From: Henriciella sp. | Lineage (GTDB): Bacteria > Pseudomonadota > Alphaproteobacteria > Caulobacterales > Hyphomonadaceae | DNA length: 46,842 nucleotides | Direction of reading: 5' to 3' | Assembly (NCBI GenBank): GCA_013213825.1 | Contig: JABSQA010000006.1 | Span: forward strand, 1-46,842 | In this document: one piece after another, positions 1,519-17,932 of the stretch | Layout of the letters: each line of letters starts with the position of its first letter | Position numbering within the stretch: the stretch's first letter is position 1 | Position numbers and translations under genes: made by a program | Notes under the pieces: model-generated | The model's database searches: none | Told to the model about the DNA's origin: nothing | Seen by the model: only the letters and a program-made list of their open reading frames with translations

Positions 1519-2331
1519 ATGCGCCGCGCATATACGGACGGACTCTTTGGACAGATCCACTACCGGATCGCGAATGCGCAAACCGATACAGGCAAACCGC
1601 CACTAATCTGTCTTCATCAGAGCCCAAAATGCGGGCTTGAGTTTGAAACGTTCATGCGCGTGGCGAGCCGCGACCGCACCGTGATTGCTCCGGACTATCC
1701 TGGCTATGGCATGTCCGATGCTGCACCTTCAGAAGATGCGACGACAATACCGATGTATGCCACTGAGACGTGGCGCGTCGTCGATGCACTTGGCTATCAA
1801 TCAGTCGACCTGTTCGGAAACCATACCGGCGCCAAAGTCGCTGCGGAGATGGCCATGCAACGCGGAAGCGATGTGCATGCCATCGCGATGATATCCGCGG
1901 CAATCCTGACCGATGAAGAGCGCGAAATGTTCAAGGATATGTTCACGCCCATTCCGCTCGACGAAGAACACTCGCGCTTCAAGATCAGCTGGGCCCGCGT
2001 CATCGAGCGCCAAGGTCCAGGCCAAACCCTCGAGATGATGGATCGCTCTATCTATATGAATATGATGGGCGGCGAAGCCTATGAATGGGGTCATGTTGCG
2101 GCTTTCGCATGGGGCAAGCCTTTCGACGAAGCTCTCAGCAAACTCCCACACCGGATCACGCTGCTAAACCCAACAGATGACCTCACCGAGTGTACGCGCC
2201 GTGCTGAAAAGTTGATGCGCAATGGCGAGATCATCGAGTGCCCGCAATGGGGTTATGGGTTCATGGACGCGTTTCCCGAAGACACAGCAGACCTCGTCCT
2301 CGGGATGCTGGATGCGTCTCAGCCTGTCTAG
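1519..2331 (+). CDS. Alpha/beta-hydrolase-fold protein with non-canonical active site
   Basis: The 270-residue protein has the alpha/beta hydrolase layout: an oxyanion region (LICLHQSP), DYPGYGMSD, a nucleophile elbow and a C-terminal acid region (NPTDDLTE). The elbow, normally GxSxG, reads GNHTG with His102 at the nucleophile position. The usual C-terminal catalytic His region reads WGYGFMDAFPED with Tyr246 where His is expected. Asp remains available. I therefore doubt ordinary esterase activity; it could be a lyase, a cofactor-free enzyme or a binding protein. The start is ATG 1519 with GGAAGGA upstream, 2 nt after the oxidoreductase stop. The stop overlaps by 4 bp the stop of the convergent MFS gene. 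Confidence 0.75.
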   Translation: MRRAYTDGLFGQIHYRIANAQTDTGKPPLICLHQSPKCGLEFETFMRVASRDRTVIAPDYPGYGMSDAAPSEDATTIPMYATETWRVVDALGYQSVDLFGNHTGAKVAAEMAMQRGSDVHAIAMISAAILTDEEREMFKDMFTPIPLDEEHSRFKISWARVIERQGPGQTLEMMDRSIYMNMMGGEAYEWGHVAAFAWGKPFDEALSKLPHRITLLNPTDDLTECTRRAEKLMRNGEIIECPQWGYGFMDAFPEDTADLVLGMLDASQPV

Positions 2332-3889: not shown

Positions 3890-3905
3890 TATTGGTATAT
3901 CTTTT
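3890..3905. promoter_or_regulatory. Weak copy of the GATATATC operator between MFS and amine oxidase
   Basis: The sequence TATTGGTATATCTTTT resembles the stronger regional sites (for example AAATGATATATCTTTT at 17914), differing in the core by one base (GGTATATC for GATATATC). It lies in the 95-bp divergent gap, 54 bp from the MFS start and 27 bp from the amine oxidase start, so one bound regulator could control both. Assignment rests only on similarity to the other sites. Confidence 0.4.
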
Positions 3906-3931
3906 CACGCGAGCGTCGAGGAAAATCTGCC

Positions 3932-5338
3932 ATGCAACTGACAAGACGAGGTTTTGTGGCGGCCAGTGGCCTGGCTTTGACCGCGGCGTGCACGCCTAAT
4001 GTGCGAAGGTCGCAAGACGCCGATATCTTAATTCTGGGAGCGGGTTTGGCAGGCTTGCATGCCGCGCGCATGCTGGAAGCGGACGGGTTCAAGACCCTTA
4101 TCCTAGAGGCCGACACGCGCATTGGCGGGCGGATGCATACGCTAGACCAGCTGCCTGGCCGCCCTGAGGCGGGAGGCCAACAAGTCGGACAATCTTATGC
4201 GCGCATCAGATCAACCGCGATCGATCTTGGTCTGAATGTCGTGCCGCCTGCGCCTGGAGGGTCGCGGGCGAAGACGATGGTGTTTGGAAACCGAGTCTTT
4301 GATGCCCGCGACTGGGCGTCCGCGCCGGACAATCCCTTCCCCGATGCGTTTAAGCGTGCGAACCCTGACACCGCTTTGTTCATGGCGGCGGCAGCTGAGA
4401 ACCCGCTCGTTGACCAATATGCGTGGCGCGAGATTGGAAGCGAATTTGATATCAGCGCCGAAGCGTTTTTGGAGCGCGCAGGATTTGATCCGGCGTCGCG
4501 CGCGCTTTGCAATATCGCACTCAACGCCAATGATCTATCGACCTATTCCATGCTCAATTTATGGCGGAGCCTGACCCTATTTGCGATCGATTCCTCAAGT
4601 GGTGGGTCGGAAGAAATAGAAGGCGGCTCACAGCGCCTGCCAGAAGCGATGGCAGATAGTCTATCCGAAGGCGCGTTAAAACTCGGCTCCGCCGTGACGT
4701 CGATCAGCGCCGATGAGTCGGGCGTGGAAGTCGCGGCGGGAGGGCGAACCTATCGAGCGCCATTTGGCATAAGCACGCTTCCATTTCCCGTCTTGCGCAA
4801 GCTGGACGTGACGCTCTCCAGCTCAGCGCCACCGATCTGGCCGATCATCGACCAAATGCCCTATACCCAAATTCAACAAGTCCATTTGGAAATTGAGGAG
4901 GGTCCGAGCGATGACCTGCCTTTGATGATGTGGACCGATACCCCCATTGAACGGGTCTTTCCGGTTCGTAATTCCACCGGCGAAACCGTGGCGCTGACCT
5001 GCTGGATCAATGGCGTTGGCATCCGTCCTTCCACCAGCGACGAAGATTGGAAATCCCTCGCCGAGGAGACTTTGCTAGCAACGCGCGGCATACGCGCCAA
5101 AGCCCATAAAGTGGTGCGGTGGGATAAGGATCAACCGCTTAGCGGCGGGGCTTATATGCATTGGGCACCAGGACAGATTCAGCCTTGGGCTGAACGTGTA
5201 ACCCAGCCGAGTGGGCGGTTGCACTTTGCTGGTGAGCACACATCCTTCCTGCACACTGGGATGGAAGGCGCGATGGAAGCTGGCGAGCGGGCCGCTTACG
5301 CGATCATTGAAGCTGCGGCTGGCGTTGAAGCCTCATAG
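3932..5338 (+). CDS. Tat-exported FAD-dependent amine oxidase (flavin monoamine oxidase family)
   Basis: The 468-residue protein opens with [11 protein letters not shown], a twin-arginine signal, followed by a TAAC sequence that could be a weak lipobox (Cys20). The FAD dinucleotide-binding motif GAGLAG is at residues 36-41, then an acidic residue ends the second strand and GGRMHT gives the conserved GGR loop. The C-terminus [22 protein letters not shown] is the second FAD-contacting motif of monoamine oxidase/polyamine oxidase-like enzymes. Such enzymes oxidise amines, or desaturate substrates, using FAD and O2, here probably in the periplasm. The exact substrate is unknown. ATG 3932 follows GAGGAAAATCTGCC. 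Its 3' end overlaps the convergent cysteine-synthase-like gene by 43 bp. Confidence 0.85.
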
Positions 5339-6372
5339 GGGATGCTCTCAAAACCAATCAGTTCGACATCTGGCGAGATATAATCTGGCTTTACGGGTTC
5401 TTCGCGCGCCAAATCTGTCGACAGATATTTCTTATTATCATCACAGAAAATGGTCGCGACCGTGGACTCACTTCCGAGCTGGTCTTGCACGGCCAAAGCA
5501 CCAATGAGATTGGCACCGGAGGATATGCCGACAGCAAGACCGAGCTCGGAAGCAAGCTTTTGCGCCATGAGAATGGCATCGCCATCGCTCACAGAAATGA
5601 CGGAATCAAGTTCATCAAGTTTGACGATGGATGGAATGAAATCATCCGAAACGCCTTGAATGCGATGCGAACCGGTTTTGTATCCAGTCGATAAAGTTGG
5701 CGACTCTGCCGGTTCGAGCGGGTGAACTTTGACATGCGGGGCAGCGCGGCGAAGCGCGCGGCCGACGCCCATAACGGTTCCCCCCGTGCCGACGCCAGCA
5801 ATAAAGGCATCGGGCGTGAGCTCAATCGAAGCCAGTTGGCCGAGCAGTTCTGGACCCGTTGTCGCTTCGTGCGCGTTACAGTTTTCGCAATTGGCGAATT
5901 GCTGTGAGAGGAAGACATCATCGCGCCTTTCGGCGAGCGCCTCAGTCGCCGCGATGGCACCGAGGAAACCACCCTCTTCTCGCGAGACAAGGTGCAACTC
6001 CGCCCCGAGCGATCGTAGCAAGGACTTGCGTTCTTCGCTCATCCAATCTGGCATATAGATGCGGACCGTATGACCCAAAGCACGCCCCAAAGCGGCGATG
6101 GCAATACCGGCATTGCCGCTGGTCGCTTCAGCAATCAAATCGCCAGGTTTAAGCGCTTTGCTTGCGTAGGCACAGCGCAGAATGTTCAGCGCCATTCGAT
6201 CTTTAATACTTCCGGTGAGATTATAATGCTCGGCCTTGGCAAAAATTACGCGTCGCTGCCCTTTCCAACGCAAATGCACGGCGAGAAGGGGCGTGCGGCC
6301 AATCATGCCCGCAAGCGAACTTAGCCGCGTCTGTTCGCAAAAGTCGACTGAGGATAATCCCGAAAAAGCCAT
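5296..6372 (-). CDS. PLP-dependent cysteine synthase / cystathionine beta-synthase family enzyme
   Basis: The fold-type II PLP enzyme shows [11 protein letters not shown] with the Schiff-base Lys, TSGNAGIA for substrate carboxylate binding, [10 protein letters not shown] for the PLP phosphate loop, and GISSGAN near the C-terminus, as in CysK/CysM. It should catalyse beta-replacement or beta-elimination on a serine- or cysteine-like amino acid. An extra C-terminal tail of about 35 residues follows the core. The chosen start is ATG 6372, preceded by AGGAGATTGAT; the longer frame to 6468 runs into the promoter region. It is divergent from an Lrp/AsnC gene, an arrangement common for amino-acid catabolic genes such as cysteine desulfidases controlled by an Lrp-type regulator. 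A biosynthetic role is less likely in this context but possible. Confidence 0.85.
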
Positions 6373-6421
6373 ATCAATCTCCTGCGCAGAGATATCCGCG
6401 TTTCTCCACCAAAAATCATTA

Positions 6422-6431
6422 CGAAATTTCG
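6422..6431. promoter_or_regulatory. Palindrome in the divergent cysteine-synthase/Lrp promoter
   Basis: A perfect 10-bp palindrome CGAAATTTCG lies in the 107-bp divergent gap. A related AT-rich sequence, ATAATTTTCGTGCAAT, follows at about 6455-6470. AT-rich dyads of this kind are usual for Lrp/AsnC binding, so the neighbouring regulator may bind here and control both genes. Only sequence shape and position support this. Confidence 0.35.
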
Positions 6432-6479
6432 CCTTTTCAGCACTTTTAGTGTTATAATTTTCGTGCAATACCCATTATT

Positions 6480-6938
6480 ATGGAAAATTTTGATGATATG
6501 GATCGCCAGATCCTAAGACTGCTCCAAACCGATTCCACCATACCGCTGGAAGCGATCGCAACGCAGCTTAGCGTATCGGTGAATACGTGCTGGCGTCGCG
6601 TGCGTCGATTGGAAGAGACCGGCATCATTCGTGGACGCGTTGCGATTTGCGATCCTGACAAAGTTGGGATTGGTCAAACCGTATTCGTCGCCGTAAAGAC
6701 CAGTGACCACTCTTCAGCCTGGCTGAACAAGTTCGCCAAAACGGTGACCGCTATTCCCGAAGTGGTCGAATTCTATCGAATGGCTGGCGATGTCGACTAT
6801 ATGCTAAAAATCGCGGTCAGCTCCGTCGCGGACTATGACCGCGTTTACAAGTCGCTGATCAGCAAAATCGAAGTCGCCGATGTCAGCGCGACCTTTGCGA
6901 TGGAGTGTTTGAAAAATACGACAGAGCTGCCCGTCTAG
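6480..6938 (+). CDS. Lrp/AsnC-family transcriptional regulator
   Basis: The 152-residue protein has the N-terminal winged helix-turn-helix (MDRQILRLLQTDSTIPLEAIATQLSVS, with recognition helix VNTCWRRVRRLEETGII) and a C-terminal RAM ligand-binding domain containing RMAGDVDYMLKI and a typical closing strand. It should sense an amino acid or related effector and bind as a dimer or octamer. Its divergent partner is the cysteine-synthase-like gene, its likely target. ATG 6480 has no clear Shine-Dalgarno sequence. An ATG at 6498 (MDRQIL) is an alternative. The stop lies 3 bp from the stop of the convergent CpcT/CpeT-like gene. Confidence 0.9.
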   Translation: MENFDDMDRQILRLLQTDSTIPLEAIATQLSVSVNTCWRRVRRLEETGIIRGRVAICDPDKVGIGQTVFVAVKTSDHSSAWLNKFAKTVTAIPEVVEFYRMAGDVDYMLKIAVSSVADYDRVYKSLISKIEVADVSATFAMECLKNTTELPV

Positions 6939-6941
6939 GCG

Positions 6942-7886
6942 TCACTCGCCAGAAGCCGGTGTATGCGTACAGCTCGCTTGGATCCAACGAAGATTGATAC
7001 CGATACGTTCGGCATCCCCTTCATTCCATGCATAAGAAACCGCACGGTCGCTTTCGCCCTCCATGATGTATAGCGTCAACGATGGACGATTGGTCCCGTA
7101 CGGCCAGTCGACATTGCGAAGCTTCAAACGGATCTTACGCGGCGTCTCTTCATCCGTAATCAGTTCCGCTTCTCCGCCTTGATCATGCAGGGTCACACCG
7201 CGGCGGAAATCCCAATCGCGCATGCCTTCACCGGAATCGCCATGACTGGCACCGCGCAGGATTGCTGTCCAACATTCGAACGGACGGGCGCGGCGAAATC
7301 GCGCCTCCGTCATCGCTTCACCCCGATTGGCAACCACCCAAAAATCATTCTCGGAGAGCGTCATCCGCACATTCAGTGCGGCGTCTCCTTTGGGCTCAGG
7401 GAAAACATCATCGCAGCCATTGCCGACGGCATGCCCCTCAAATTGCGCGCCCTGCCGATTCCACAGCACCTCACACCCAATGCCTCGCAGCGATCCATCT
7501 TCTTTTGGAAACGCCATAGATTGCCGGATCGCCTGCACGTGAGGGTCGATGGAAAAAACGTGGCGGATATAAGCAGGCTCGCTATCGGCAACGGTGCGCG
7601 CGGCTTCAAATCCGACAATGGGCGCTCCAGAAGAGTCCTGATCGTCTTCCAATTCCATACGCTGAATGTGGATATGCTGTCTCGGCGCGATGGGCGTTGT
7701 GTCCATGCCCGCATCTTCGGCGAAGAAGACATGGCGATCATTATCCCACTGGCCATCAAATAGAGCGACCAATTCCGCAAAGTCTTTGCTCAACCAACCT
7801 GGCGCTTCGGGGCTGGAATCTTGTGCTGTCGCACACGCTGTTGAAAAACCGATCACGCTCGCTGCGATGATAAATTGCCGAACCAT
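6942..7886 (-). CDS. Exported CpcT/CpeT-like (chromophore lyase fold) protein
   Basis: The 314-residue protein has an export signal ending near FSTACATAQ, possibly a lipoprotein with Cys18. The rest matches the pattern of CpcT/CpeT proteins: an N-terminal FDGQWDN block, a paired strand region PRQHIHIQRMEL, then VFSIDPHVQAIRQSMAF, and GCEVLW with QFEGHAVGNGCDDVF, where the family has GCxV and GxTxGxxC. In cyanobacteria such proteins attach bilins to phycobiliproteins, using a calycin-like barrel. No phycobiliprotein gene is visible here, so the function is open; binding of a tetrapyrrole or other hydrophobic ligand is a guess. It lies 82 bp downstream of the TonB receptor on the same strand, behind a terminator. 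The start has GAGAGGTAAGAG before ATG 7886. Confidence 0.55.
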   Translation of the reverse strand: MVRQFIIAASVIGFSTACATAQDSSPEAPGWLSKDFAELVALFDGQWDNDRHVFFAEDAGMDTTPIAPRQHIHIQRMELEDDQDSSGAPIVGFEAARTVADSEPAYIRHVFSIDPHVQAIRQSMAFPKEDGSLRGIGCEVLWNRQGAQFEGHAVGNGCDDVFPEPKGDAALNVRMTLSENDFWVVANRGEAMTEARFRRARPFECWTAILRGASHGDSGEGMRDWDFRRGVTLHDQGGEAELITDEETPRKIRLKLRNVDWPYGTNRPSLTLYIMEGESDRAVSYAWNEGDAERIGINLRWIQASCTHTPASGE

Positions 7887-7902
7887 GCTCTTACCTCTCG
7901 TT

Positions 7903-7936
7903 TAAAAAAGAGCGGCGGATCCATCGACCCGCCGCT
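7903..7936 (-). terminator. Rho-independent terminator after the TonB receptor
   Basis: On the minus strand an 8-bp GC-rich stem, AGCGGCGG paired with CCGCCGCT (7936-7929 and 7918-7911) with a 10-nt loop, is followed by CTTTTTT. It lies in the 82-bp gap between the receptor stop and the CpcT/CpeT-like start, so the downstream gene is probably expressed less than the receptor or has its own promoter. Confidence 0.75.
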
Positions 7937-7968
7937 TTTATACTCTGATCTGCAGAGATGACTGGATC

Positions 7969-10437
7969 TTAGAATTCAGTGCTCAAGGTCACACCGACCT
8001 GAGGCCCGCGGCGCAATGTGCCGACAAAATTCCGTTTGAAGCTATCCCCACCATCTGCGTAACGCAACACGAGCGGCGACGAGTCTTCATCGGTCAGGTT
8101 GCGGCCCCAGAGACGCAGCGTGTGCTGGCCATTGGTGACGCCGATCCGAGCGCCAACCAATGTGGCATCGCCGGTTTCTGCTTGGTTATGCACCTGAGAG
8201 AATTTGCTCGACTCATAAGAGACATTGGCACCGGCAAAGAAGTCCCATTCGCCGTAGCCTGTGGCGCCGCGATAATCCAAGTCGAAGAAGATTTGGTGCT
8301 CCGCGGTCCGCGGAATCTCACGCCCCACAATCGACCCAAAGGCGTTTTGCAAACAATCGGACGTCGGGTCCGTTGGGTCCGCTAGGATTTCGCAACCGAC
8401 AGATCCGTTGACCAAACCATCATCAACCGTATCCAACAGCACACCTTCATTCTGGTCACGACCAGAGGTGAATTCGGTGTCTGTCCAAGCATAGTTCAAA
8501 GTTGCCGTAAGGCCTTCGAAACTATCCGGCGTCAGGCGGAATTCCGCCTCAAGACCAAGGATTTCCGCATCACCCGCATTGACGGTGGCAGAGGTCGTAT
8601 TGGTGTCATTGACGCGAACGTTTTGCGTCAACTGATAACCTTCCACCTCATTGAAGTAACCGGCCAAGTTGGCGGTGAGCTGCCCGTCGAAGAAGACGTT
8701 CTTTGACCCGATCTCGATCGAGGCCACTTCCTCCTCGTCAAAGGTCCCGAGACCCGCAAGCTGCGCCTGATTAGAGTTGAAACCGCCTGGCTTCTGGCCT
8801 TCAGCGTAAACCGCATAAAGCAGATTGTCTGGCGTCACTTGCCAATCAATCGTCGCCCGTGGCGCAAAATTATCAAAGCTCGCGCTTTGAGTTGGATCGC
8901 CCGGTGCATTGCGCTCAATATCTTCTTCGGCGTAACGGCCTTCAAGCGTGACCGAAACGGTGTCAGAAACATCATAAGAGACAAGACCAAAAATGGCTCT
9001 GTTCTCGATATCGAATGTGCTCATGCCATCTGGCACCGAGATTGTGGACGAACCAAACGGCACGATCGCGACACAGGTTGGATTGAACCCACAGATCACT
9101 TGCTGCGACGCGAGCTCAGCAGCAAAATTCGCATCCGCCGTGGCTTGTGCGCCTGGCGGCAGAATGCGGGCATCCCGATTCATTTCTTCGCCATCCAGAT
9201 AATAGGCACCAACCAAGGCTCGGAAATTGTCGCCATCATAGTTCAACCGAACCTCTTGCGAGAGCTCTTCTTCCTCGCTGGCATTGGCGAACGTAAAGTC
9301 AGCAATACTGGTTGGATAACCATAGATGGCTTGGAACGGTGCCAAGCTCAAAATGTTGAACGGGAAACCACCCGGGACAAAATTCGTCGCCTGGAACCGT
9401 GTCGGCGAATAATCACCGTCGGTTTGTTGGCTCACATCGCGCTGGTTGAAACCGGTAATCGCTGTGATCGACCAAGTCTCAGTCAAGTCGCCATCAATCG
9501 ACAGGCTCAGCTGGGTGCTCTCAATGTCCGTTCCCGCATCAGGTCCGACCTGGAGGCGATAGTCCGTATTGATGTCACGCGGTTGAACCTAGCCGCAGAA
9601 ATAACGGCCCTGACCGCCATACAAAGCGCCATTGTCAAAGAAGCAATTATTCTCATCTGCCGTGGTCGCGAACAGCGCCGGCTGGCCATCTTTACTATCC
9701 GAGCGATAAGCTCGTAGGCGAATGTCCCAATTGTCATTTGGGGTGAAATAGAGAACCCCCGAAACGGACTGCGTCCGTTCATCGCCAACCGGTTCGCCAT
9801 CAAACAGATTGGTGTGTTCACCATCATAATTATAGTAGCGATAGTTGACGCCGAATGCGAGCAAATCATTGACCCGTCCACTAAAGCCAAGGCTCAAATC
9901 CTGCTGACCATTCTCACCTAAATCGAGCGAGGCGCGACCGCTGGCTTCATCGGTCGGAGAGCGCGTGATGATATTGATCGCGCCTGAATATGTGTTCCGA
10001 CCATAGAGCGCACTTTGCGGCCCTTTCACCACCTCGATCCGCTCAATATCATTGAGGTCGTAATCGGTGATCGCGCCAGAAATCCGAACGCCATCAATAA
10101 AGTAAGACACACCTGATGCGCCAAGAATGTTGGCTTGGCCGCGAATGACCGGGCGATTGGAGTCGCGACCAAATTCATTGTCGAAAGACAGGCCGGGCGT
10201 GAGCTTCGAGATGTCGGAAAGATCGGTGAGTGATAGATTGTCGATCACGTCAGCCGTGACAACCGAAACCGCAACAGGGGTTTCCTGCAATGTTTCTTCC
10301 GTCTTCCTCGCCGTAACGGTGATTACGTCTTGTCGTGACTCGGCTTCTTCCTCGACAGCATCTTGGGCGATTGCTGGCGCGGTGTAGGCCGTCATCGCAA
10401 TCGCGGCCGCTCCGAACATCAAAAAGGTCTTAGACAT
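7969..10437 (-). pseudogene. TonB-dependent outer-membrane receptor interrupted by an in-frame TAG
   Basis: Start ATG 10437 (GAGGG upstream) gives a signal peptide ending APAIAQ, a TonB-box-like DVITVTARK and a plug domain (LSDISKLTPGLSF, RGQANILGASGVSYFIDGV, IERIEVVKGPQSALYGRNTYSGAINI). After YFCG a TAG occurs at 9591-9589 (codon 283). Reading on in the same frame gives VQPRDINTDYRLQ and the full beta-barrel, ending with the terminal Phe of VGVTLSTEF. Including the TAG the frame is 822 codons, a normal receptor length, so one base change (for example GAG or CAG to TAG) explains the break. Such receptors import large ligands using TonB energy. Neither half alone would form a working receptor. 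Suppression, readthrough or sequencing error would rescue it. A palindromic operator lies about 50 bp upstream. Confidence 0.85.
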
Positions 10438-10480
10438 GTGGGTCCCTCGCTGCGTCATCGTGTCCGCCGACACAAATGAC

Positions 10481-10500
10481 ATAATGATATATCTTTTATC
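10481..10500. promoter_or_regulatory. GATATATC operator upstream of the TonB receptor
   Basis: ATAATGATATATCTTTTATC contains the palindromic core GATATATC (10486-10493). It lies in the 167-bp divergent gap between the receptor (start 10437) and the calycin-like gene (start 10605), where it could control both. It matches the sites at 12103, 14594, 14612 and 17914. Confidence 0.65.
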
Positions 10501-10604
10501 CTCTGGACCGGTCTAAGTGCGATTTGTCGTTTTGACCAGCCCAACCCATAATTTTCTCAGCATCTCGTGGCGAAAAAAACACACCTCCCTGAAAGGACCT
10601 GGCA

Positions 10605-11111
10605 ATGGCAGACGGAATGACCGCCAATGAACTCAAAAAAATCATGCCGCTCTTGGCGCGCCATGAAGGCGTTTGGGAGGGAACCTATCGGTTCTACGAT
10701 GCCGCGGGTGCTCTCATCGATTCGCATGAATCGCGTCTGATTTGCCGTTTCCCTGAGTCCGGGCACGCCTATCACCAAACCAATTATTATCGCTGGGCGG
10801 ACGGCAAGCGAGAGACGCGCGACTTCCCTGCCCTGGTCGAAAATGGCCGCCTCAAATGGGACAATGAATTCATCAATGGCTGGGCTTGCGATGTCGCCTT
10901 GGACGATTTCAACCGCACAACCATGCTGAATTGGACTCGGACGGGCGAACCTGACTTATATCTCTATGAAATGATCCAGATCTCAGATGATGGCCAAGCG
11001 CGAGCCCGTGTCTGGCAATGGTTTAAAGCCGATCGATTGTTCCAGAGAACGTTGGTGGACGAGCGGTTCGTCACCAAGGATTGGCAATCCTATGATGGTC
11101 AAACCTTCTAG
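10605..11111 (+). CDS. Calycin/lipocalin-like small protein (DUF3598-like)
   Basis: The 168-residue protein has no signal peptide. It starts with a helix (MTANELKKIMPLLARHEG), then VWEGTYRFYDAAGALIDSHESRL, the GxW...Y-type first strand of calycin barrels, followed by alternating beta strands rich in Trp and Tyr (HQTNYYRW, NEFINGWACDV, MLNWTRTGEPDLYLYEMI, RARVWQWF). This fits a small beta-barrel that holds a hydrophobic ligand. My match to DUF3598 is from pattern memory only. ATG 10605 follows AAGGACCTGGCA. It is divergent from the TonB receptor with a palindromic operator between, so it likely belongs to the same regulon. A strong terminator follows. Confidence 0.5.
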   Translation: MADGMTANELKKIMPLLARHEGVWEGTYRFYDAAGALIDSHESRLICRFPESGHAYHQTNYYRWADGKRETRDFPALVENGRLKWDNEFINGWACDVALDDFNRTTMLNWTRTGEPDLYLYEMIQISDDGQARARVWQWFKADRLFQRTLVDERFVTKDWQSYDGQTF

Positions 11112-11117
11112 ATGTAA

Positions 11118-11147
11118 AAAGGCCGGGACTTAATCGCCCCGGCCTTT
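11118..11147. terminator. Bidirectional terminator between convergent genes
   Basis: A perfect 10-bp inverted repeat AAAGGCCGGG/CCCGGCCTTT with a 10-nt loop sits between the calycin-like gene (+, stop 11111) and the DUF1838 gene (-, stop 11169). The A and T ends give U-tracts for both directions. Confidence 0.85.
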
Positions 11148-11168
11148 CTCATTGTCGGATCGAGTTGA

Positions 11169-12089
11169 CTATTCGACGCCGCGGTCTGGCGCTGTGATCG
11201 AGCCGTCGCGGATGCCTTTATAATACTTCCAGCTGGTCATGTTCGACCGCGGATCACCAGAGGGGGGCGGGCTGGTATATTCAGGATAGTGCGTGGCAAT
11301 CTCGGCTTTCATCGTGTCGGAGAGTTGGTCATAGCTCTCTAATTTATAGCCTGCTGTGTGCATGTAGAGCATGCCTTGCCGCCCATTCATATCCATCCAT
11401 GGCAACCAATCGGCCATACGCGCCCAACCCACCGTAATCTTGGCTGAATCACTTTCTGGATCGAGCAAATCATCGGTGCGCCCGAAGAAGTTGAACATCT
11501 CCGTGGCGTGATAGGTGCCACCAATCTCTTTTTGGAATTCGCTGGCCAGTGGGTTGGGATACCAAAGCGGCACCGTGCTGCGCATCCACCATGTTCCATC
11601 TTCGCCAATCTCGCCGCCCCATTGCAGCGGCGAACCATCGCGACCGGTCTCATACATTTTGAAGTTCACAGGGTCATTGGCGACGTGAAGCACATCAACA
11701 GTCTCGCCCGTCCAAGGATTGTCCCAAGTCGACAATACCTCGCCCGTCTTGGGGTCTTTATAGAGAAGGATCTCGCGCGACACCAAGTGTAAGCCAGTCC
11801 CCTTCTCCTCATCCTCAATGGTTGAGCAGGCGCGAATATTCATGCCTTCGACATCAAAAACATGGCGATCGCGTTCGCCGGTGACGCGTGACAAAGCAAT
11901 GCCATGCCACCAATAGACTTCAGGCTGATCATCAACCGTCGAGCACATAACCTTGCGCATAATGGTCAGCGAGTCGGCGGCATCATTAGGGTCGAGCGTC
12001 GCCCCTTCCTGCGCCTGACTTATGGTTGCACAAGCCGCTAAAGCCGTGAGCGATGCGCCCATAGCAGCAATTTTTGAGAACAGTTTCAC
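11169..12089 (-). CDS. DUF1838-family lipoprotein
   Basis: The GTG start at 12089 follows GGAGGTGGACCCC and gives a 306-residue protein with a clear lipoprotein signal: VKLFSKIAAMGASLTALAAC, lipid-modified at Cys20. The mature part carries Trp-rich blocks NPWTGE, DGTWWMRSTVPLWYPNP, MADWLPWMDM and the C-terminal SWKYYKG, which I recognise as DUF1838. The family has no settled function and is common in sphingomonads and relatives that degrade complex organics. It is the last gene of a leftward operon with the HMG-CoA-lyase-like enzyme and the sodium symporter. A perfect copy of the regional palindrome lies directly upstream of its ribosome-binding site, so it may also have its own promoter. Confidence 0.7.
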   Translation of the reverse strand: MKLFSKIAAMGASLTALAACATISQAQEGATLDPNDAADSLTIMRKVMCSTVDDQPEVYWWHGIALSRVTGERDRHVFDVEGMNIRACSTIEDEEKGTGLHLVSREILLYKDPKTGEVLSTWDNPWTGETVDVLHVANDPVNFKMYETGRDGSPLQWGGEIGEDGTWWMRSTVPLWYPNPLASEFQKEIGGTYHATEMFNFFGRTDDLLDPESDSAKITVGWARMADWLPWMDMNGRQGMLYMHTAGYKLESYDQLSDTMKAEIATHYPEYTSPPPSGDPRSNMTSWKYYKGIRDGSITAPDRGVE

Positions 12090-12102
12090 GGGGTCCACCT
12101 CC

Positions 12103-12118
12103 AAATGATATATCATTT
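12103..12118. promoter_or_regulatory. Perfect 16-bp palindromic operator AAATGATATATCATTT
   Basis: This is the most symmetric copy of the regional element and is fully palindromic over 16 bp. It lies in the 41-bp gap between the symporter stop and the DUF1838 start, with the palindrome edge 3 nt from the GGAGG. The outer bases TTTAAA also match the site upstream of leuC. Confidence 0.75.
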
Positions 12119-12130
12119 AAACTGGCACGG

Positions 12131-13579
12131 TTAATCGCTCCCGCCAAGCCCCAATTCGTCTATTGGGCGAGATTTTCTGATCGCCCCGACTATGGCCATG
12201 GCTAGGAACGCCCCCAGCCAAGGCGCAATCGTCTTCCACATCGCCCCAGGGCCTGTGCCAATCCAGTTGAGTTCGTATGCCACGGCCAGTCCAAACCCGA
12301 CCAACATACCGGTCAACACCACAGACCCGCGCGGCTGGAAGCCCAACGTCCGAGCCACCACTGTTGGCCCGAATGCCGCGCCAAGCGCCACCCAGGCGAA
12401 GAGAATCCGCTGAAAAATGCTCGCTGGAGCCAAGAAGGTCAGCAATATAGCGGCGATACAGACCCCTATAATGGCAAGGCGAGAGACAAGTACTTCTCGG
12501 TTTCCCAGCGCTTTGCCCAGTCCCAAATCGTGCGAGACGGCCCCGCCCGCGACAAGGAGCTGACTGTCCACGGTCGACATGATTGCAGAGAGTGTCGCCG
12601 CTGCAACAATGCCGGCTAAAACCCCTGGCAATAAGTCGTCCGCCAGCTCGAAGAAAACCGATTCAGGTGCGGCATCAGCCCCGAATATGGCACGTCCAGA
12701 CAGACCTAAAACCGCCATACCTACGAACACCATGGTCGCCCAGCTCATCGCAACGAGAGCGCCCTTCACACGGGCTGACCGATCCTTCGTCGCCATGATC
12801 CAAGCAATGAGGTGCGGCTGCCCCAAAGCGCCGAAACCCGTGGCGGAAAGCCCGAGGACAAAACCTAGCGCCGCAAATCCAGCGCGCGCGCCAAATGGTG
12901 CACCATACGCCTCCGGCGCTTCTGCGAACGCCCCGACAAGACCGCTCGCCCCTCCCGCTTCAAAGAAAGCCAACACGGGCAACACAATCGCCACCAAAGC
13001 CATGAGCAGGCCTTGAATCGTGTCGGTAATCGACACCGCCATAAAGCCCCCCAGAAACACATAGGCCAGAATAACCAGCGCTCCGATCAAAACGCCCGGC
13101 GCAAAGCCGGTGGCGAACAGGTCATTGATCGCAATGCCTGCACCTTGGAACTGACCGGCGACATAGAATGAGAAGCAAATGGCGATCAAAATGGAGGCTA
13201 TGATACGGATCCAACGCGCAGAATTCGGCGTTGCGAACTGTGTCAGGAACTCCGTCAGCGTCAGCTGATTGGCCTCGCGACTGGCCGTTTGCAGCGTGTC
13301 TCCCGACCAGAGCCAAACGGCGGCATAGCCCGCGATGATCCCAGGCACCATCCACAGCGCTGATGGCCCGGCGACATAGACAAAGCCAGAAAACCCTAAG
13401 AGCACCCAGGCACTCGAGCTTGACGCCGCATACGCTAATCCCGCCACCCACGGCCCGAGGCTACGACCACCGAGTAGAAAGTCTTCCTGCGAACGCGCGC
13501 GCCGCGCGGCCCAGAGGCCAATACCAAATAAGAGACCTGAATAGATAATCAGCGTGATCAGCGCGGGTATGTTCTCCAA
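12131..13579 (-). CDS. Sodium/solute symporter (SSS family, PutP-like)
   Basis: The 482-residue protein has about 13 hydrophobic segments and SSS features: an N-terminal YSGLLFGIGLWAARR, LGGRSLGPWVAGLAYAASSSSAWVLLGFSG, then GGFMAVSITDTIQG in the middle, and a later LSAIMSTVDSQLLVAGGAVSHD, the sodium-site helix region of the family. It should bring a small organic solute, such as an amino acid or carboxylate, across the inner membrane with Na+. It begins with TTG 13579, preceded by GGGGGAGACGAGC, 21 nt after the lyase gene stop, so the two are co-transcribed. From context I infer a carboxylate substrate of the same pathway (for example citramalate or citraconate), but PutP-like proteins vary widely. 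Confidence 0.85.
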   Translation of the reverse strand: MENIPALITLIIYSGLLFGIGLWAARRARSQEDFLLGGRSLGPWVAGLAYAASSSSAWVLLGFSGFVYVAGPSALWMVPGIIAGYAAVWLWSGDTLQTASREANQLTLTEFLTQFATPNSARWIRIIASILIAICFSFYVAGQFQGAGIAINDLFATGFAPGVLIGALVILAYVFLGGFMAVSITDTIQGLLMALVAIVLPVLAFFEAGGASGLVGAFAEAPEAYGAPFGARAGFAALGFVLGLSATGFGALGQPHLIAWIMATKDRSARVKGALVAMSWATMVFVGMAVLGLSGRAIFGADAAPESVFFELADDLLPGVLAGIVAAATLSAIMSTVDSQLLVAGGAVSHDLGLGKALGNREVLVSRLAIIGVCIAAILLTFLAPASIFQRILFAWVALGAAFGPTVVARTLGFQPRGSVVLTGMLVGFGLAVAYELNWIGTGPGAMWKTIAPWLGAFLAMAIVGAIRKSRPIDELGLGGSD

Positions 13580-13600
13580 GCTCGTCTCCCCCAGACCTGA

Positions 13601-14551
13601 CTATTCCGCGGCCACAGACACAGCTGCGCCTTTGAACCCGAGCGGCAAGCCAGCCCTTGGCGTAAATCCGTATAAGTCCTCTTCCGGCAATGCCGCGCTG
13701 ACCATGTCTCGCGTCGCCATCAAGGCCTCGAGATCAATCCCGGTATCAACGCCCATCGACTCAAACATAAAGACCAGGTCTTCGGTGACCACGTTGCCAC
13801 TTGCGCCCGGCGCTGTCGGACAGCCTCCGAGACCGCCGAGCGAACTGTCAAAAGTGGTGATACCCTCTTCATAAGCGGCCAGCACATTTGCCAAACCCAG
13901 GCCTCGTGTATTGTGTAGATGCACGCCCGTCAGATGGTCATCCCCAACCACCGCGCGCACCGCACGAATAAGGCGCTTCATCGAAACGGGGTCGCCATAT
14001 CCTGTCGTGTCCGACAGACCAACTTCATCGCATCCAGCGGCCATTAAACGTTCCGCGTTGCGTAGGATAATCGCGTCATCAATCGGCCCCTCCAAAGTAC
14101 ATCCAAAAGCGGTCGACAATGAGCCTTCAAAATGTGGACGTTGCTCTTTCGGCAAGCTTGAGAGCAAATCGGCAATCGCTTCCGCCTCTTCAATCACCTG
14201 ATCATGCGTGCGGCGAATGTTGCGCAATGAATGCGTTTCACTGACCGAAAGCGGCAATGTGATTTTGTCGGCCCCGGCTTCAACAGCAAGCTGAGCGCCT
14301 TTCAGATTGGGCACCAAAACTGCAACTTCGAGTCCGTCTATCCCGACTGCATGTCGGACAATTTCCCCCGTATCGGCCATTTGCGGCAGCAGCTTCGGAG
14401 ACACAAAAGAGCCGACCTCGATTTCTTTCACACCCGCAGCGGCCAGGGCTGAAATCCAAGCCTTCTTATCTTCAGTTGGCATGATCGCCTTACAGTTTTG
14501 TAGACCATCCCGCGGTCCGACTTCGCTGATCAAAACACTGTTTTTTGTCAT
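13601..14551 (-). CDS. HMG-CoA-lyase-family enzyme; candidate (R)-citramalyl-CoA lyase
   Basis: The 316-residue TIM-barrel protein has the family's EVGPRDGLQN motif near the N-terminus, FGCTLEG, DTTGYGDP, the metal-binding HLHNTRGLGLAN, and the Gly-rich Cys loop GGLGGCPTAPGASGN. These residues bind the divalent metal and carry the catalytic Arg, Asp and Cys for retro-aldol cleavage of a 3-hydroxy-3-methylacyl-CoA. HMG-CoA lyase acts in leucine breakdown. (R)-citramalyl-CoA lyase of Chloroflexus belongs to the same family and is paired with a CaiB-type CoA-transferase, as here. The absence of isovaleryl-CoA or methylcrotonyl-CoA carboxylase genes nearby favours the second reading, but motifs alone cannot decide. 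ATG 14551 follows AAAGGCGAATGAG; the longer frame to 14647 runs into the operator sites. First gene of a lyase-symporter-DUF1838 operon. Confidence 0.8.
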   Translation of the reverse strand: MTKNSVLISEVGPRDGLQNCKAIMPTEDKKAWISALAAAGVKEIEVGSFVSPKLLPQMADTGEIVRHAVGIDGLEVAVLVPNLKGAQLAVEAGADKITLPLSVSETHSLRNIRRTHDQVIEEAEAIADLLSSLPKEQRPHFEGSLSTAFGCTLEGPIDDAIILRNAERLMAAGCDEVGLSDTTGYGDPVSMKRLIRAVRAVVGDDHLTGVHLHNTRGLGLANVLAAYEEGITTFDSSLGGLGGCPTAPGASGNVVTEDLVFMFESMGVDTGIDLEALMATRDMVSAALPEEDLYGFTPRAGLPLGFKGAAVSVAAE

Positions 14552-14593
14552 CTCATTCGCCTTTTTACCCGTCAGGGGAGTGACCTTTTCGTC

Positions 14594-14609
14594 AAATGAT
14601 ATATCTAAT
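14594..14609. promoter_or_regulatory. GATATATC operator, first of a tandem pair
   Basis: AAATGATATATCTAAT with core 14598-14605 lies 43 bp upstream of the lyase start and about 72 bp upstream of the CoA-transferase start, in their divergent gap. A second copy follows with an 18-bp centre-to-centre spacing. Confidence 0.65.
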
Positions 14610-14611
14610 TC

Positions 14612-14630
14612 AATTGATATATCTATTAAA
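14612..14630. promoter_or_regulatory. GATATATC operator, second of a tandem pair
   Basis: AATTGATATATCTATTAAA with core 14616-14623 is the second copy in the divergent lyase/CoA-transferase gap. The spacing of 18 bp is a little under two helical turns, so two dimers could sit side by side or each control one direction. Confidence 0.65.
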
Positions 14631-14680
14631 GATGTGCGGGAAAGCAAAGAAGTGCGTTACTTTGCCCGCGGGAGAGACGG

Positions 14681-15898
14681 ATGATCAATGAAACAGGCCT
14701 GCTTGCCGGAATCAAGGTCGTTGAATTTACCCATATGGTTATGGGCCCTGCGGCTGGATTGGTTTTGGCGGACCTTGGCGCTGACGTGGTTAAAGTCGAG
14801 CCGGTGGGCGGCGACAAGACGCGGCGACTACGCGGGTCCGGCGCAGGCTATTTTTCAATGTACAATCGCAACAAGAAGAGTTTGGCGATTGACCTGAAAT
14901 CGCCCGAGGGCAAAGAGATCGCCTTAAAGCTGGTCGACGAAGCGGATGTTTTCATCGAGAATTTTCGTCCCGGGGCATTGGACAAGTTAGGCTTTGACTA
15001 TGCGTCATTGGCCGCCCGTAATCCACGTTTGATCTATTGTTCTGAAAAGGGCTTTCTCGATGGCCCTTATGCCCACCGAACCGCCCTCGATGAAGTCGCG
15101 CAGATGATGGGCGGATTGGCCTATATGACAGGCCCGCCCGGACGACCTTTGCGCGCCGGAAGCAGTGTGATTGATGTAACGGGCGGCATGTTTGGCGCCA
15201 TTGCAGTCCTCGCGGCTTTGCAGGATCGCGCCCGTACAGGCAAAGGACGTCATGTCAGTGCTTCGCTTTATGAAACCACGGTTTTTCTCGTCGGTCAGCA
15301 TATGGCCCAATATGCTGTGACCGGCACGCCAGCAGCGCCGATGCCCGCCCGCGTTTCAGCCTGGGCCGTCTATGATGTGTTCGACGTCAAAAATGATGAG
15401 AAAGTTTTTGTTGGGGTTGTCTCAGACACACAATGGCGTGCGTTTTGTGAGGCGTTTGACCTCACACAATGGGCCCAGGACGCCTCACTTGCAGCCAATA
15501 ATGACCGGGTCGCCCGCCGCGATGAAATCATCCCTGTTTTACGAGAACTGTTTCTTGGCTTCAGCAAGGATGAATTGATGGCAAAACTGGAAACTACCGG
15601 TTTACCGTTCGCACCCATTCAACGCCCCGAAGACCTGGCAACCGATCCTCACTTGGTCGAGAGTGGCGGTTTACTCGATATGACTATCCCAGAAGGCGGA
15701 GATATTTCTTTGCCGGCGATGCCCATCGCGATTGACGGGGCACGTCCTGGCCTGACCATAAATCCACCTGAGATTGGCGAGCATTCTGAACAGGTGCTGC
15801 TCAGTCTCGGCTTGAGCGAAGCTGAAATCGCCCGTTTGATTGAACGCGGCTTAATTGATGCGCACCAGTCGAAGCAGCCCACTCAGGCGGCCGAATAG
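14681..15898 (+). CDS. Family III (CaiB/BaiF) CoA-transferase; candidate succinyl-CoA:citramalate CoA-transferase
   Basis: The 405-residue protein has the family III start (VVEFTHMVMGPAAGLVLADLGADVVKVEP), GDKTRRL, NRNKKSLAIDLKSPEG, VFIENFRPGALDKLGFDY and the active-site block ALDEVAQMMGG, in which Asp137 should form the acyl-aspartyl anhydride. Such enzymes move CoA between acyl-CoA and a carboxylate. Its divergent partner is a lyase of the HMG-CoA lyase family and it converges on leuD-like and leuC-like genes. In Chloroflexus a CaiB-type succinyl-CoA:(R)-citramalate CoA-transferase works with that kind of lyase, so citramalate activation is my leading inference. Itaconate or mesaconate activation is an alternative. 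ATG 14681 follows GGGAGAGACGG. The 3' end overlaps the leuD-like gene by 16 bp. Confidence 0.8.
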   Translation: MINETGLLAGIKVVEFTHMVMGPAAGLVLADLGADVVKVEPVGGDKTRRLRGSGAGYFSMYNRNKKSLAIDLKSPEGKEIALKLVDEADVFIENFRPGALDKLGFDYASLAARNPRLIYCSEKGFLDGPYAHRTALDEVAQMMGGLAYMTGPPGRPLRAGSSVIDVTGGMFGAIAVLAALQDRARTGKGRHVSASLYETTVFLVGQHMAQYAVTGTPAAPMPARVSAWAVYDVFDVKNDEKVFVGVVSDTQWRAFCEAFDLTQWAQDASLAANNDRVARRDEIIPVLRELFLGFSKDELMAKLETTGLPFAPIQRPEDLATDPHLVESGGLLDMTIPEGGDISLPAMPIAIDGARPGLTINPPEIGEHSEQVLLSLGLSEAEIARLIERGLIDAHQSKQPTQAAE

Positions 15899-16506
15899 AC
15901 CCACGGGCGTTGAGCCGCATCTTTCTCAAAGAAGGCTTCAATCTCATCTTTCGAGGTGAGCGTCATCGAAATGGGGTCTAGCCCCTCGGTCAATAACCGC
16001 TTGGCAAACGCTGAGATATCAAACTGTCTTTCCCAGTTCGGTAAGTTTGCACATGCGATCGATTGCGCCACCAGATCAACGGTCACCTCCACTGGTCCTG
16101 CCAGTGATCTAAGGGAGTCCATGTCGTCTGTAGGAAGTGTGATCGGAAGAATACCATTCCGGATACAATTGCCGTGAAAAATCTCGCCGAAACTCTCCGC
16201 GATAATGACTCGTATGCCATACTCCTTTAGCGCCCAAGCTGCATGCTCGCGTGATGATCCGCAGCCAAAATTCTTACCGGTGATGAGCACCGTCGTCCCG
16301 ACCTGTTCGGGCCGATTGAGCACAAAGTCGGGATTTTCAATCCGCGCCTGCGCATCCGTGTAGCGCCAACCCGCGAACAATCCATCGCTCAGACCTTTGC
16401 GGCCAACCGTCTTCATCTCTCGGGAGGGAATAATCTGATCCGTGTCGACATTATCACGTGATAAGACGGCACTTCGCCCCGTATGCACGACCAGTTTTTC
16501 TGCCAT
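15883..16506 (-). CDS. LeuD-type dehydratase/isomerase small subunit
   Basis: The 207-residue protein fits the swivel-domain small subunit of 3-isopropylmalate dehydratase: NVDTDQIIPSREMKTVGRKGL, GKNFGCGSSREHAAWALKEYGIRVIIAESF and FHGNCIRNGILPI. It pairs with the large subunit just upstream to hydrate and dehydrate a branched C5-C7 hydroxy-diacid. Start ATG 16506 shares one base with the large subunit's TGA, a sign of translational coupling. LeuA and LeuB are absent nearby. The neighbours instead activate and cleave a branched hydroxy-acid, so this pair may act as a citramalate (2-methylmalate) dehydratase rather than in leucine synthesis. Confidence 0.85.
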   Translation of the reverse strand: MAEKLVVHTGRSAVLSRDNVDTDQIIPSREMKTVGRKGLSDGLFAGWRYTDAQARIENPDFVLNRPEQVGTTVLITGKNFGCGSSREHAAWALKEYGIRVIIAESFGEIFHGNCIRNGILPITLPTDDMDSLRSLAGPVEVTVDLVAQSIACANLPNWERQFDISAFAKRLLTEGLDPISMTLTSKDEIEAFFEKDAAQRPWVYSAA

Positions 16507-17897
16507 CAAGCCAATTCCTTAGATCGCGCCGGAAGATCTGACGGGGCACAAATGCTGCCAGCCACGGCGCTGGCTGCAACGACGGCTGGATTGGTGATAT
16601 GCGTTCTTACCCCGGGGCCTTGCCGCCCTTCGAAATTGCGATTGGTCGAGGACACGACCCGTGCGCGGGGCGGGAACGTTTCCCCGCCTGCATAGAAGCA
16701 CATGGCACAACCTGGTTCGCCCCACTCAAACCCCGCCGCTACGAAGATCTTATCGATCCCGAGCGCTTCTGCTTCGCGGCGTACGGATTGCGACCCTGGC
16801 ACACACACGGCTCTCACGCCGGGCGCAACGCGCCTGCCTTGGAGGATGCGCGCGGCGGATTTTAAGTCCGACAGGCGGCCATTGGTACAAGAGCCAATAA
16901 AAGCACCCTCAATGGCCAATCCGGAAATCGCTTGAGAGGGCTCCAACCCCATATAAGACAGGGCTTGGCTGGACGCATCGCTCGGAACGCGTTGGTTCAC
17001 GGCACAGCTCTGTTCCGGGCTTGTGCCCCAGCTGATTTGCGGCGTGATTTGCGTCGCATCAATGATGATCTCATGATCAAACGCGGCATCCGTATCGGTA
17101 TTGAGCGTCCGCCAATACGCCATCGCTGTATCGAGATCACTATTCGGATCAACCCGCTCCCGAACATAGTCGAGCGTCTTCTCGTCCGGTGCGATCAGGG
17201 CTGAGAAGGCCGCAAACTCTACGGCCATATTGCAAAGGGTGAGCCGCCCTTCAATCGACAGCTGTTCTACCGTAGTGCCGCAAAACTCAATGGCGGATCT
17301 TTGGCCGCCCCCCGCGCCATAGGTCGAGATCATATAAAGCGCGATGTCTTTTGCAGAGCATCCTTCCGGCAACGCACCCTCGACACGCACGCGCATTTGC
17401 GGTGGCTTTGTTGCCCGCAAAACGCCTGTCGCCATGACATGCTCCGCTTCGCTTGAGCCAATGCCCCAAGCCAGCGCCCCCAGTGCACCAAGACTGCATG
17501 TGTGGCTGTCTGGGCAGACGATTGAGAAGCCGGGTAACACGATGCCTTTTTCTGGCGCCGTGACATGCACAATGCCCTGATCGTGGCTATCTGTATCGAT
17601 GAGATGAATTCCAGCCGCGTTCGCCATTTGGCGCGTTTCGGTAATGAATGCGGCGCCGCCCGGACTGCGCGCATCATTGCGACCCCGGCCCGATTTGAAC
17701 GACACGATATGATCCATGATCGCAATCACGCGTGACGGATCCCGCACGGAATAGCCATTTTCCGCCAGAGACTTTAGCGCCACGCCGCCAGTGCGCTCGT
17801 GCAGAAGGAGCCGATCAATCGCCAATAGGTCAGCGCCTCCTTCGGAACCACACACCCGATGCGCCTGCCATAATTTGTCAAATAGCGTATGCGCCAA
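16506..17897 (-). CDS. LeuC-type dehydratase/isomerase large subunit (Fe-S)
   Basis: The protein of about 463 residues has the aconitase-superfamily features AHTLFDKLWQAH, CPDSHTCSLGALGALAWGIGSSE, FIGSCTNGRLSDLKSAA with the first cluster Cys, and GEPGCAMCF with two more, consistent with a [4Fe-4S] cluster that activates water. It works with the LeuD-like subunit. I chose TTG 17897, with GGAGG 5 nt upstream and the normal family N-terminus. An upstream TTG at 17915 overlaps the operator and is less likely. The pathway reading (citraconate or mesaconate to citramalate) comes from its neighbours; leuCD homologues of this kind also serve leucine synthesis and 2,3-dimethylmalate breakdown. The efflux operon ends 86 bp upstream. 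Confidence 0.85.
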   Translation of the reverse strand: MAHTLFDKLWQAHRVCGSEGGADLLAIDRLLLHERTGGVALKSLAENGYSVRDPSRVIAIMDHIVSFKSGRGRNDARSPGGAAFITETRQMANAAGIHLIDTDSHDQGIVHVTAPEKGIVLPGFSIVCPDSHTCSLGALGALAWGIGSSEAEHVMATGVLRATKPPQMRVRVEGALPEGCSAKDIALYMISTYGAGGGQRSAIEFCGTTVEQLSIEGRLTLCNMAVEFAAFSALIAPDEKTLDYVRERVDPNSDLDTAMAYWRTLNTDTDAAFDHEIIIDATQITPQISWGTSPEQSCAVNQRVPSDASSQALSYMGLEPSQAISGLAIEGAFIGSCTNGRLSDLKSAARILQGRRVAPGVRAVCVPGSQSVRREAEALGIDKIFVAAGFEWGEPGCAMCFYAGGETFPPRARVVSSTNRNFEGRQGPGVRTHITNPAVVAASAVAGSICAPSDLPARSKELA

Positions 17898-17913
17898 AAC
17901 AACCTCCGACGCC

Positions 17914-17932
17914 AAATGATATATCTTTTAAA
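17914..17932. promoter_or_regulatory. GATATATC operator upstream of the leuC-like gene
   Basis: AAATGATATATCTTTTAAA with core 17918-17925 is nearly identical over 20 bp to the site at 12102-12121. It lies 17 bp from the TTG start and about 6 nt from the GGAGG, the same position relative to the ribosome-binding site as the DUF1838 site. Confidence 0.7.

Follow-up and report, generated by a model that had tools for sequence, protein, structure and literature searches.

NagR, DasR and HutC combine a GntR helix-turn-helix with a UTRA domain, bind palindromic operators with an 8-bp core and a 4-nt gap, and act on catabolic target genes. In HutC types the core is usually GT-N4-AC, with exceptions listed in the accessible part of PMC4494728. 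Here we describe a 16-bp palindrome, AAATGATATATCATTT, that recurs in a 46,842-nucleotide stretch of DNA from Henriciella sp. (contig JABSQA010000006.1 of assembly GCA_013213825.1; the whole stretch is called the window below). Judged from sequence, and with a probability of roughly three in four, this palindrome is the operator of a GntR/UTRA repressor that controls one catabolic programme for cyclic imides. The candidate regulator and its predicted sites share the domains, the operator geometry and the catabolic targets of the three known systems, whereas the core is GATATATC instead of GTMTAKAC and the protein scores below the curated equivalog cut-offs for PhnF (123.4 against 156.8), HutC (107.8 against 220) and TreR (65.8 against 211.95). 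The kind of regulation is a known one, i.e. catabolic control of the GntR/HutC type, with an operator core that differs from the common form. In the open-licence literature searched we found no description of the gene content of this regulon, and nothing on GntR in Henriciella.

The genes near the palindrome also resemble described catabolic systems in part. In the hydrolysis of cyclic imides by the Pseudomonas putida imidase, as by HxnM/HxnN of Aspergillus nidulans, a PuuE-related hydrolase is found beside an amide hydrolase, and cyclic imidases are relatives of PuuE according to the accessible part of PMC9304392. The same two genes are neighbours here, as judged by homology, but three PuuE-type paralogs lie under shared operators, together with TonB receptors, calycins and two branches for C4-dicarboxylate cleavage. 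The 2,3-dimethylmaleate/dimethylmalate route (DmdAB and dimethylmalate lyase) has in common with our reading the hydration of a disubstituted maleate; in contrast, when 45 proteins of the regulon were compared, none fell into the lyase cluster described below, and the enzymes seen in Henriciella are HMGL, CoA-transferases and a lyase of HpcH type. As in the itaconate system RipABC, a class III CoA-transferase, a MaoC hydratase and an HpcH lyase stand side by side, with an acyl-CoA dehydrogenase and a second CoA-transferase as extra members here; the RipB and RipC models score below cut-off (234 of 340 bits and 228.5 of 375, respectively).

The original prediction, made from the letters of the window, was that a shared palindrome marks a hidden regulon. 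A search of the window recovered the exact core GATATATC at all five positions given (10486, 12107, 14598, 14616 and 17918) and nowhere else, as had been claimed by eye, and the weaker core GGTATATC at 3894. Shuffled windows held a mean of 0.50 exact copies (100 shuffles, largest 2). With up to one mismatch, 21 copies were found against 12.9 expected, a number reached by 1 of 100 shuffles; because these copies are only slightly enriched, the weight rests on the longer palindrome. We trained a matrix on 53 sites from five other genomes (G008, G022, G024, G028 and G036, among 61 genomes compared under codes of this style). It scored above 8 at exactly six positions in the window (14.9 to 31.8), which are the six sites of the original prediction, and nowhere above 8 in 181,611 bases from 17 other loci of the window genome that had been fetched as holders of the 8-mer; this check is not blind, since the training sites were gathered with the consensus from the window genome. 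Twenty Markov-1 windows together gave 9 matrix scores above 10. The two copies at 12102 and 17913, described as nearly identical over 20 bp, agree at 19 of 20 bases. The six predicted operators, none assigned to a strand, are as follows.

3890..3905: candidate operator in a weak form, TATTGGTATATCTTTT, in the gap of the divergent MFS/amine-oxidase gene pair; matrix score 14.9
10482..10497: candidate operator TAATGATATATCTTTT, between the divergent TonB receptor and calycin genes, 45 bp 5' of the former; score 24.4
12103..12118: candidate operator AAATGATATATCATTT (perfect), 14 bp 5' of the DUF1838 lipoprotein gene; score 31.8
14594..14609: candidate operator AAATGATATATCTAAT, which forms a pair with the next one, 18 bp apart, in the gap that separates the HMG-CoA-lyase-like gene from the CoA-transferase gene; score 19.3
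14612..14627: candidate operator AATTGATATATCTATT, second of this pair; score 20.9
17914..17929: candidate operator AAATGATATATCTTTT, 17 bp 5' of the leuC-like gene; score 31.2

The genes that had been named do follow these sites. That all six are intergenic held directly for four of them, while mechanical open reading frames (ORFs) overlap the other two (the DUF1838 ORF at 12107 and the MFS ORF at 3894). Both ORFs are over-extended, because their relatives in G028 begin MKLFSK (DUF1838) and MEQDGEF (MFS); the corresponding starts in the window are a GTG at 12089 and an ATG at 3836.

Throughout the window genome the 8-mer GATATATC occurs at 31 places, compared with 12 for a reversed-pattern control. 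The flanks of the palindrome carry 0–3 mismatches at 12 of these places and 5–8 at the remaining 19, none having 4, and with the flanks absent at 19 copies the 8-mer alone was rejected as the motif. Ten of the 12 flank-bearing sites are intergenic by the gene caller; the other two (12107 in the window and L023:8497) lie in ORF starts that are over-extended relative to their G028 counterparts. When the 16-mer was searched with up to three mismatches, 17 places were found against 0 for the reversed control, distributed over C233, the window contig (5), C271 (4), C253 (3), C212 (2), C27 (1), C87 (1) and C222 (1). The motif is thus specific genome-wide and does not occur at background rate. Thirteen of the 17 places are on C233, C253, C271 and C27. 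The predicted regulon reaches at least three further contigs (C27, C253 and C271), and C212 probably belongs to it too.

The sites also recur at the same promoters in related strains. The operators at 10482 (in relatives picked by motif search), 12103 and 17914 are each present at the corresponding promoter in five of five aligned relatives. The 14594/14612 pair is found with the same spacing in G028 and G022, and as a single site in G036. At the MFS/amine-oxidase promoter the variant AAATGATATACCAATA is present in G028 (296146) and G036 (C12:1848), and G022 has no site within three mismatches there. Eleven promoter sets were compared with the window genome. In ten of them the identity of the 16-mer is 92–100%, against 18–81% for the 45-bp flanks (ungapped), the site values being biased upward because the sites were found by motif search. 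The eleventh set (P5) was shifted by one base when cut, so that its site identity of 0.31 is an artefact; on inspection by eye the site matches that of each of the two relatives at 15 of 16 bases. In set P4 the G008 row is reversed. Since mismatched 8-mer copies are near background, one could attribute the motif to chance or to the base composition of AT-rich promoters, an explanation that is hardly credible given the excess of exact 8-mers in the window, the 17 genomic 16-mers and the difference between sites and flanks in the ten promoter sets.

The arrangement of the regulon differs between relatives. In G022 most of its genes form one 56-kb island (C1:2.8–59.2 kb) with 11 operators of up to three mismatches, all of them intergenic and 14–53 bp from the nearest start codon; one further site is on C13, and CpeT is absent from this genome. 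A transposase-like fragment, recognised by eye at the left island end (G022:C1:2003-2410, locus L061), suggests that the island may be mobile. In G028, a single contig, operator-bearing genes are located at 280–301 kb, 730 kb, 771–800 kb, 1.53 Mb and 2.50 Mb, and in G035 the regulon genes are within about 40 kb.

With regard to the regulator, the original prediction saw no adjacent gene and suggested one encoded elsewhere, possibly of GntR, TetR or MarR type; the proposed check was to look for a regulator gene with a site in its own promoter. A gene of the first of these types, outside the window, has a site in its upstream gap:

C271:1307-2107: GntR/UTRA regulator gene, beside two sites, one of them at 2226 in its upstream gap

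Its product has an N-terminal GntR winged helix (PF00392, 2.7e-20, 72.2 bits against a cut-off of 27) and a C-terminal UTRA ligand domain (PF07702, 1.2e-33, 116.4 bits against 23.8). If the sites are operators of this protein, their core GA-TATA-TC has the usual HutC geometry of 8 bp with a 4-nt gap, and position -4 is a G, as it is in the operator of NagR on our reading of the accessible part of PMC4333415. At least three sites (up to two mismatches) are present in 14 of the 61 genomes (G000, G008, G011, G022, G024, G028, G035, G036, G038, G042, G046, G048, G052 and G054). Of the 14 genomes whose regulator ortholog reaches 49% identity or more, 13 are in this group, compared with 1 of the 47 others (Fisher p = 2.9e-11). 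Moreover, the hydrolase PuuE_b is encoded in 13 of the 14 motif genomes, and these 13 hold 116 sites against 5 control matches; within the genus (29 genomes) PuuE_b is found in 6 of 6 motif genomes versus 1 of 23 others (p = 1.5e-5). Genome-wide specificity, sites at the same promoters in relatives and co-occurrence with one regulator together support a shared regulon. An Lrp/AsnC gene in the window (6480-6938) was rejected as the regulator, there being no site at its promoter.

That the operators are read by another protein, such as the product of a second GntR/UTRA gene (C253:530-1243) or a regulator unseen here, is unlikely. The second gene is in the same island and has orthologs of at least 42% identity in 12 of the 14 genomes with at least three sites, but G035 has 12 sites without such an ortholog, and G025 has the second GntR (54%) with 1 site; on these two genomes the second gene was rejected and the first is favoured. 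In relatives, furthermore, a site is situated directly between the first GntR gene and the next gene. If the C271 protein is the regulator it might also activate instead of repress, which would be compatible with the sequence and with several sites lying between divergent genes. We regard activation as fairly improbable, however: the distance of every site in the G022 island to the nearest start codon is more repressor-like, and NagR of this subfamily blocks transcription according to the accessible part of its description. Because the sites are close to start codons, repression by the GntR/UTRA protein is the most likely mode.

Several observations weigh against this assignment. Both thresholds, 49% identity and three sites, were set after the data had been seen, and the genomes are related and not independent. 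G001 has a regulator of 58% identity, no PuuE_b and no site within two mismatches; G042, with 6 matches, lacks a close regulator ortholog; and five PuuE_b genomes (G025, G030, G033, G051 and G056) have fewer than three sites. The core is not the usual GT-N4-AC, as the outer GT/AC pair of the common HutC consensus is replaced by GA/TC. The site at 2226 adjoins a divergent DUF1838 gene, as do weaker forms in two relatives, so that autoregulation of GntR from this upstream gap is only a possibility. At the more distant GntR loci many isochorismatase promoters are without a recognisable site. The enzyme assignments add to these points: the three PuuE-type proteins are below the TIGR03212 allantoinase cut-off (223.1, 119.1 and 50.4 against 424.6 bits), the isochorismatase-type matches are far under known amidase cut-offs, and the fold search with the DUF1838 model matched no known fold.

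In loci from Brevundimonas and Azospirillaceae (L127, L128, L119, L120, L124, L093 and L094) the isochorismatase promoters contain half-sites, AAATGAT or GGTATA, that are spaced differently, and the operator may have drifted there together with its regulator. Isochorismatase promoters of distant relatives had altered half-sites in some cases and none in others, and no new consensus was derived from them.

The genes around the six predicted operators are listed below.

2328..3836, minus strand: MFS transporter (Pfam MFS_1); in-frame stop at 2964-2966, both pieces in one frame and matching one G028 frame
3932..5338, plus strand: flavin amine oxidoreductase (Pfam Amino_oxidase, 1.5e-44); Tat- and lipoprotein-like N-terminus by pattern match only
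6480-6938: Lrp/AsnC-type gene, inside the interval of the original prediction
6942..7886, minus strand: exported-looking protein, distant CpeT-family relative; itself without a Pfam match, its 37%-identical G036 counterpart scoring over the CpeT cut-off
7969..10437, minus strand: TonB-dependent receptor (Pfam Plug and TonB_dep_Rec on two pieces); in-frame stop at 9589-9591
10605..11111, plus strand: calycin related to DUF3598 (DUF3598_N just under cut-off; AlphaFold model, pLDDT 91.7); no signal peptide seen
11169..12089, minus strand: DUF1838 lipoprotein (Pfam, 3.2e-72); start set from the G028 relative
12131..13579, minus strand: sodium:solute symporter (Pfam SSF, 6e-52)
13601..14551, minus strand: HMG-CoA-lyase-like C-C lyase (Pfam HMGL-like, 5e-52; NF004283 above cut-off)
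14681..15898, plus strand: class III CoA-transferase (Pfam, 4.8e-115); under every NCBIfam cut-off listed
15883..16506, minus strand: LeuD-type hydratase small subunit (Pfam Aconitase_C, 1.6e-33)
16506..17897, minus strand: LeuC-type hydratase large subunit (Pfam Aconitase, 8.2e-136); passes the cut-offs of two subfamilies but not that of the leuC equivalog

The calycin model is closest to the folds of BFA1 (5yvf), a Nostoc DUF3598 protein (2o62) and Ycf58 (3bdr), and the DUF1838 protein had no match among the sequences of solved structures. The TonB receptor runs as one frame along an 821-aa G028 protein with 86% identity. A third interrupted gene in the window, an oxidoreductase, changes frame at about 1027. 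All three genes (MFS, TonB receptor and oxidoreductase) are unbroken in G028, and the interruptions may reflect assembly error or decay.

Further candidate members were found near sites on other contigs.

C271: GntR/UTRA regulator, DUF1838, YCII, nitrilase, two PuuE-type hydrolases, isochorismatase, DUF1330, TonB receptor
C253: second GntR, calycin, two CoA-transferases, acyl-CoA dehydrogenase, MaoC and HpcH types, two CMD proteins, VOC lipoprotein, third PuuE type, SDR, HapK, methyltransferase, CpeT
C27: VOC-like lipoprotein

C253 also holds further proteins without a family, and C271 a VOC-like protein recognised by eye. A simple pattern search of 45 regulon proteins gave eight with a lipobox-like start, and one of the eight also has a Tat-like motif. 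On C212 two mirror-image variants with two mismatches each (L056:5438 and 5494), separated by 56 bp, precede a further TonB receptor gene, which may also belong to the regulon. Near the right end of C271 (L023:12625-13732) a second MFS gene shifts reading frame, and its longer G028 counterpart is in another locus, so a misjoin is possible. C250 carries a tandem GATATATCGAAA 22 bp apart (L018:8970 and 8992) just 5' of a PadR-family gene. These are two of the 19 flank-poor copies and belong to a different, TTCGATATATCGAAA-like motif; the tandem was rejected as part of the regulon and is probably a separate autoregulated operator that shares the 8-bp core.

We infer GntR binding, repression, the inducer, operon membership, reaction order and substrate, and the following scheme is to be read in that sense. 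A dimer of the GntR/HutC-type protein would bind AAATGATATATCATTT and repress from sites that cover or sit just below the core promoter, until its UTRA domain binds a small intermediate and the protein leaves the DNA. TonB receptors would import a substrate that exported lipoproteins and calycins handle. The three PuuE-type hydrolases would then open cyclic imides, and amidases of isochorismatase and nitrilase type would take off the nitrogen. A LeuCD-type hydratase, class III CoA-transferases, a MaoC-type hydratase, an acyl-CoA dehydrogenase and HMGL/HpcH-type lyases would act on the resulting, possibly alkyl-substituted, C4-dicarboxylates and convert them to central metabolites. The C253 PuuE-type protein has 3s6o, 1z7a and the PuuE allantoinase 3cl6 as best solved relatives, and the isochorismatase type has N-carbamoylsarcosine amidohydrolases together with 4l07 and 3ot4, which we take to be maleamate amidases; because the PuuE and isochorismatase matches are far below cut-offs, the substrates are not readable from these similarities.

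Part of this gene set recurs beside GntR homologs in more distant Alphaproteobacteria (PuuE/isochorismatase/nitrilase and LeuCD/HMGL/CoA-transferase genes). Among the best 80 of 145 GntR loci, those of the window genus included, the recurring clusters were isochorismatase (33), nitrilase (33), PuuE_a/b (29), LeuC (28), CoA-transferase (16), HMGL (14) and LeuD (12). A methylisocitrate/dimethylmalate-lyase-family cluster occurs in 16 of the 80 and a LeuD/DmdB-family cluster in 12, both typed on one or two members each. The best solved relative of the lyase cluster is petal death protein, followed by methylisocitrate lyases, and 2,3-dimethylmalate lyase is also matched; its best NCBIfam model is methylisocitrate lyase, below cut-off. 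Lyase, hydratase pair and imidase set stand together in L114, the hydratase pair with the imidase set in L131, and the lyase with PuuE_a/b in L121 and L143. The accessible part of PMC7609661 offered only references on dimethylmalate lyase and petal death protein.

Which substrate the regulon serves is a separate matter. Our tentative guess, which the sequences leave short of an even chance, is that tetrapyrroles (products of chlorophyll, bilin or heme breakdown) are used aerobically as a source of carbon and nitrogen. Fragments of these pigments would enter by the TonB receptors, and proteins of calycin and barrel type would bind and cleave them, yielding disubstituted maleimides (methylethyl- and methylvinylmaleimide, hematinic acid). 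The PuuE/amidase set would open and deaminate these, the LeuCD and CoA-lyase branches would split the disubstituted maleates, and the GntR protein would sense one of the small acids. Chlorophyll and heme oxidation does give maleimides and hematinic acid, according to the accessible part of PMC7318184. The C253 locus encodes a CpeT-family protein (Pfam 7.8e-40; only PDB match CpcT, E 0.13), and HapK is noted on the same side. The calycin fold match Ycf58 is presumably of bilin-lyase type. In G036 both CpeT genes are in operator-bearing operons. Some of the related loci derive from algal or bloom samples, an origin given no weight here. Across the 61 genomes DUF1838 occurs with PuuE_b in 13 of 13 cases, CpeT in 12 of 13 and HapK in 14 of 16 (13 of 15 above cut-off), whereas the 14 control genomes gave one CpeT match (Synechococcus) and none to HapK or DUF1838.

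That the regulon and regulator are right and the substrate is another one, namely a different cyclic imide, an N-heterocycle (nicotinate-, pyrimidine- or flavin-like) or a hydrophobic molecule of a different class, is somewhat the better bet; this contradicts the tetrapyrrole guess only and is compatible with a GntR-controlled imide programme. No macrocycle-opening enzyme was recognised among the regulon proteins, and the enzymes are assigned to broad families only. Among the 18 PuuE_b genomes CpeT is missing from 6, including G022 and G035 with their 10 and 12 operators, DUF1838 from 5 and HapK from 4, and the CpeT genes of G028, G024 and G008 are a long way from the operators listed for these genomes. 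Dimethylmaleate-type enzymes are, moreover, known from nicotinate fermentation. Against such other substrates stand the near-exclusive company of CpeT and DUF1838 with PuuE_b, the G036 operons, and the TonB receptors, lipoprotein-like starts and calycins, which fit a large hydrophobic substrate.

A motif seen by eye in 47 kb has thus led to a candidate regulator, to several dozen predicted regulon genes, of which the products of 45 were compared, and to a testable pathway, and cultured relatives (Parvularcula lutaonensis, Hirschia maritima and Hyphomonas polymorpha among them) exist for testing. In the accessible parts of the open-licence literature searched, we found no such catabolic role for DUF1838 (PF08894) or HapK (PF11639), and the papers on bilirubin and imidases, calycins and chlorophyll catabolism gave no lead. 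To our knowledge, the bacterial breakdown of chlorophyll and bilin pyrrole rings to carbon and ammonia is largely unknown, and if the tetrapyrrole guess is true the regulon would supply candidate genes for it. If the substrate is another imide, it would still be a catabolic regulon that gives context to DUF1838, DUF3598-like, HapK and DUF1330 proteins.

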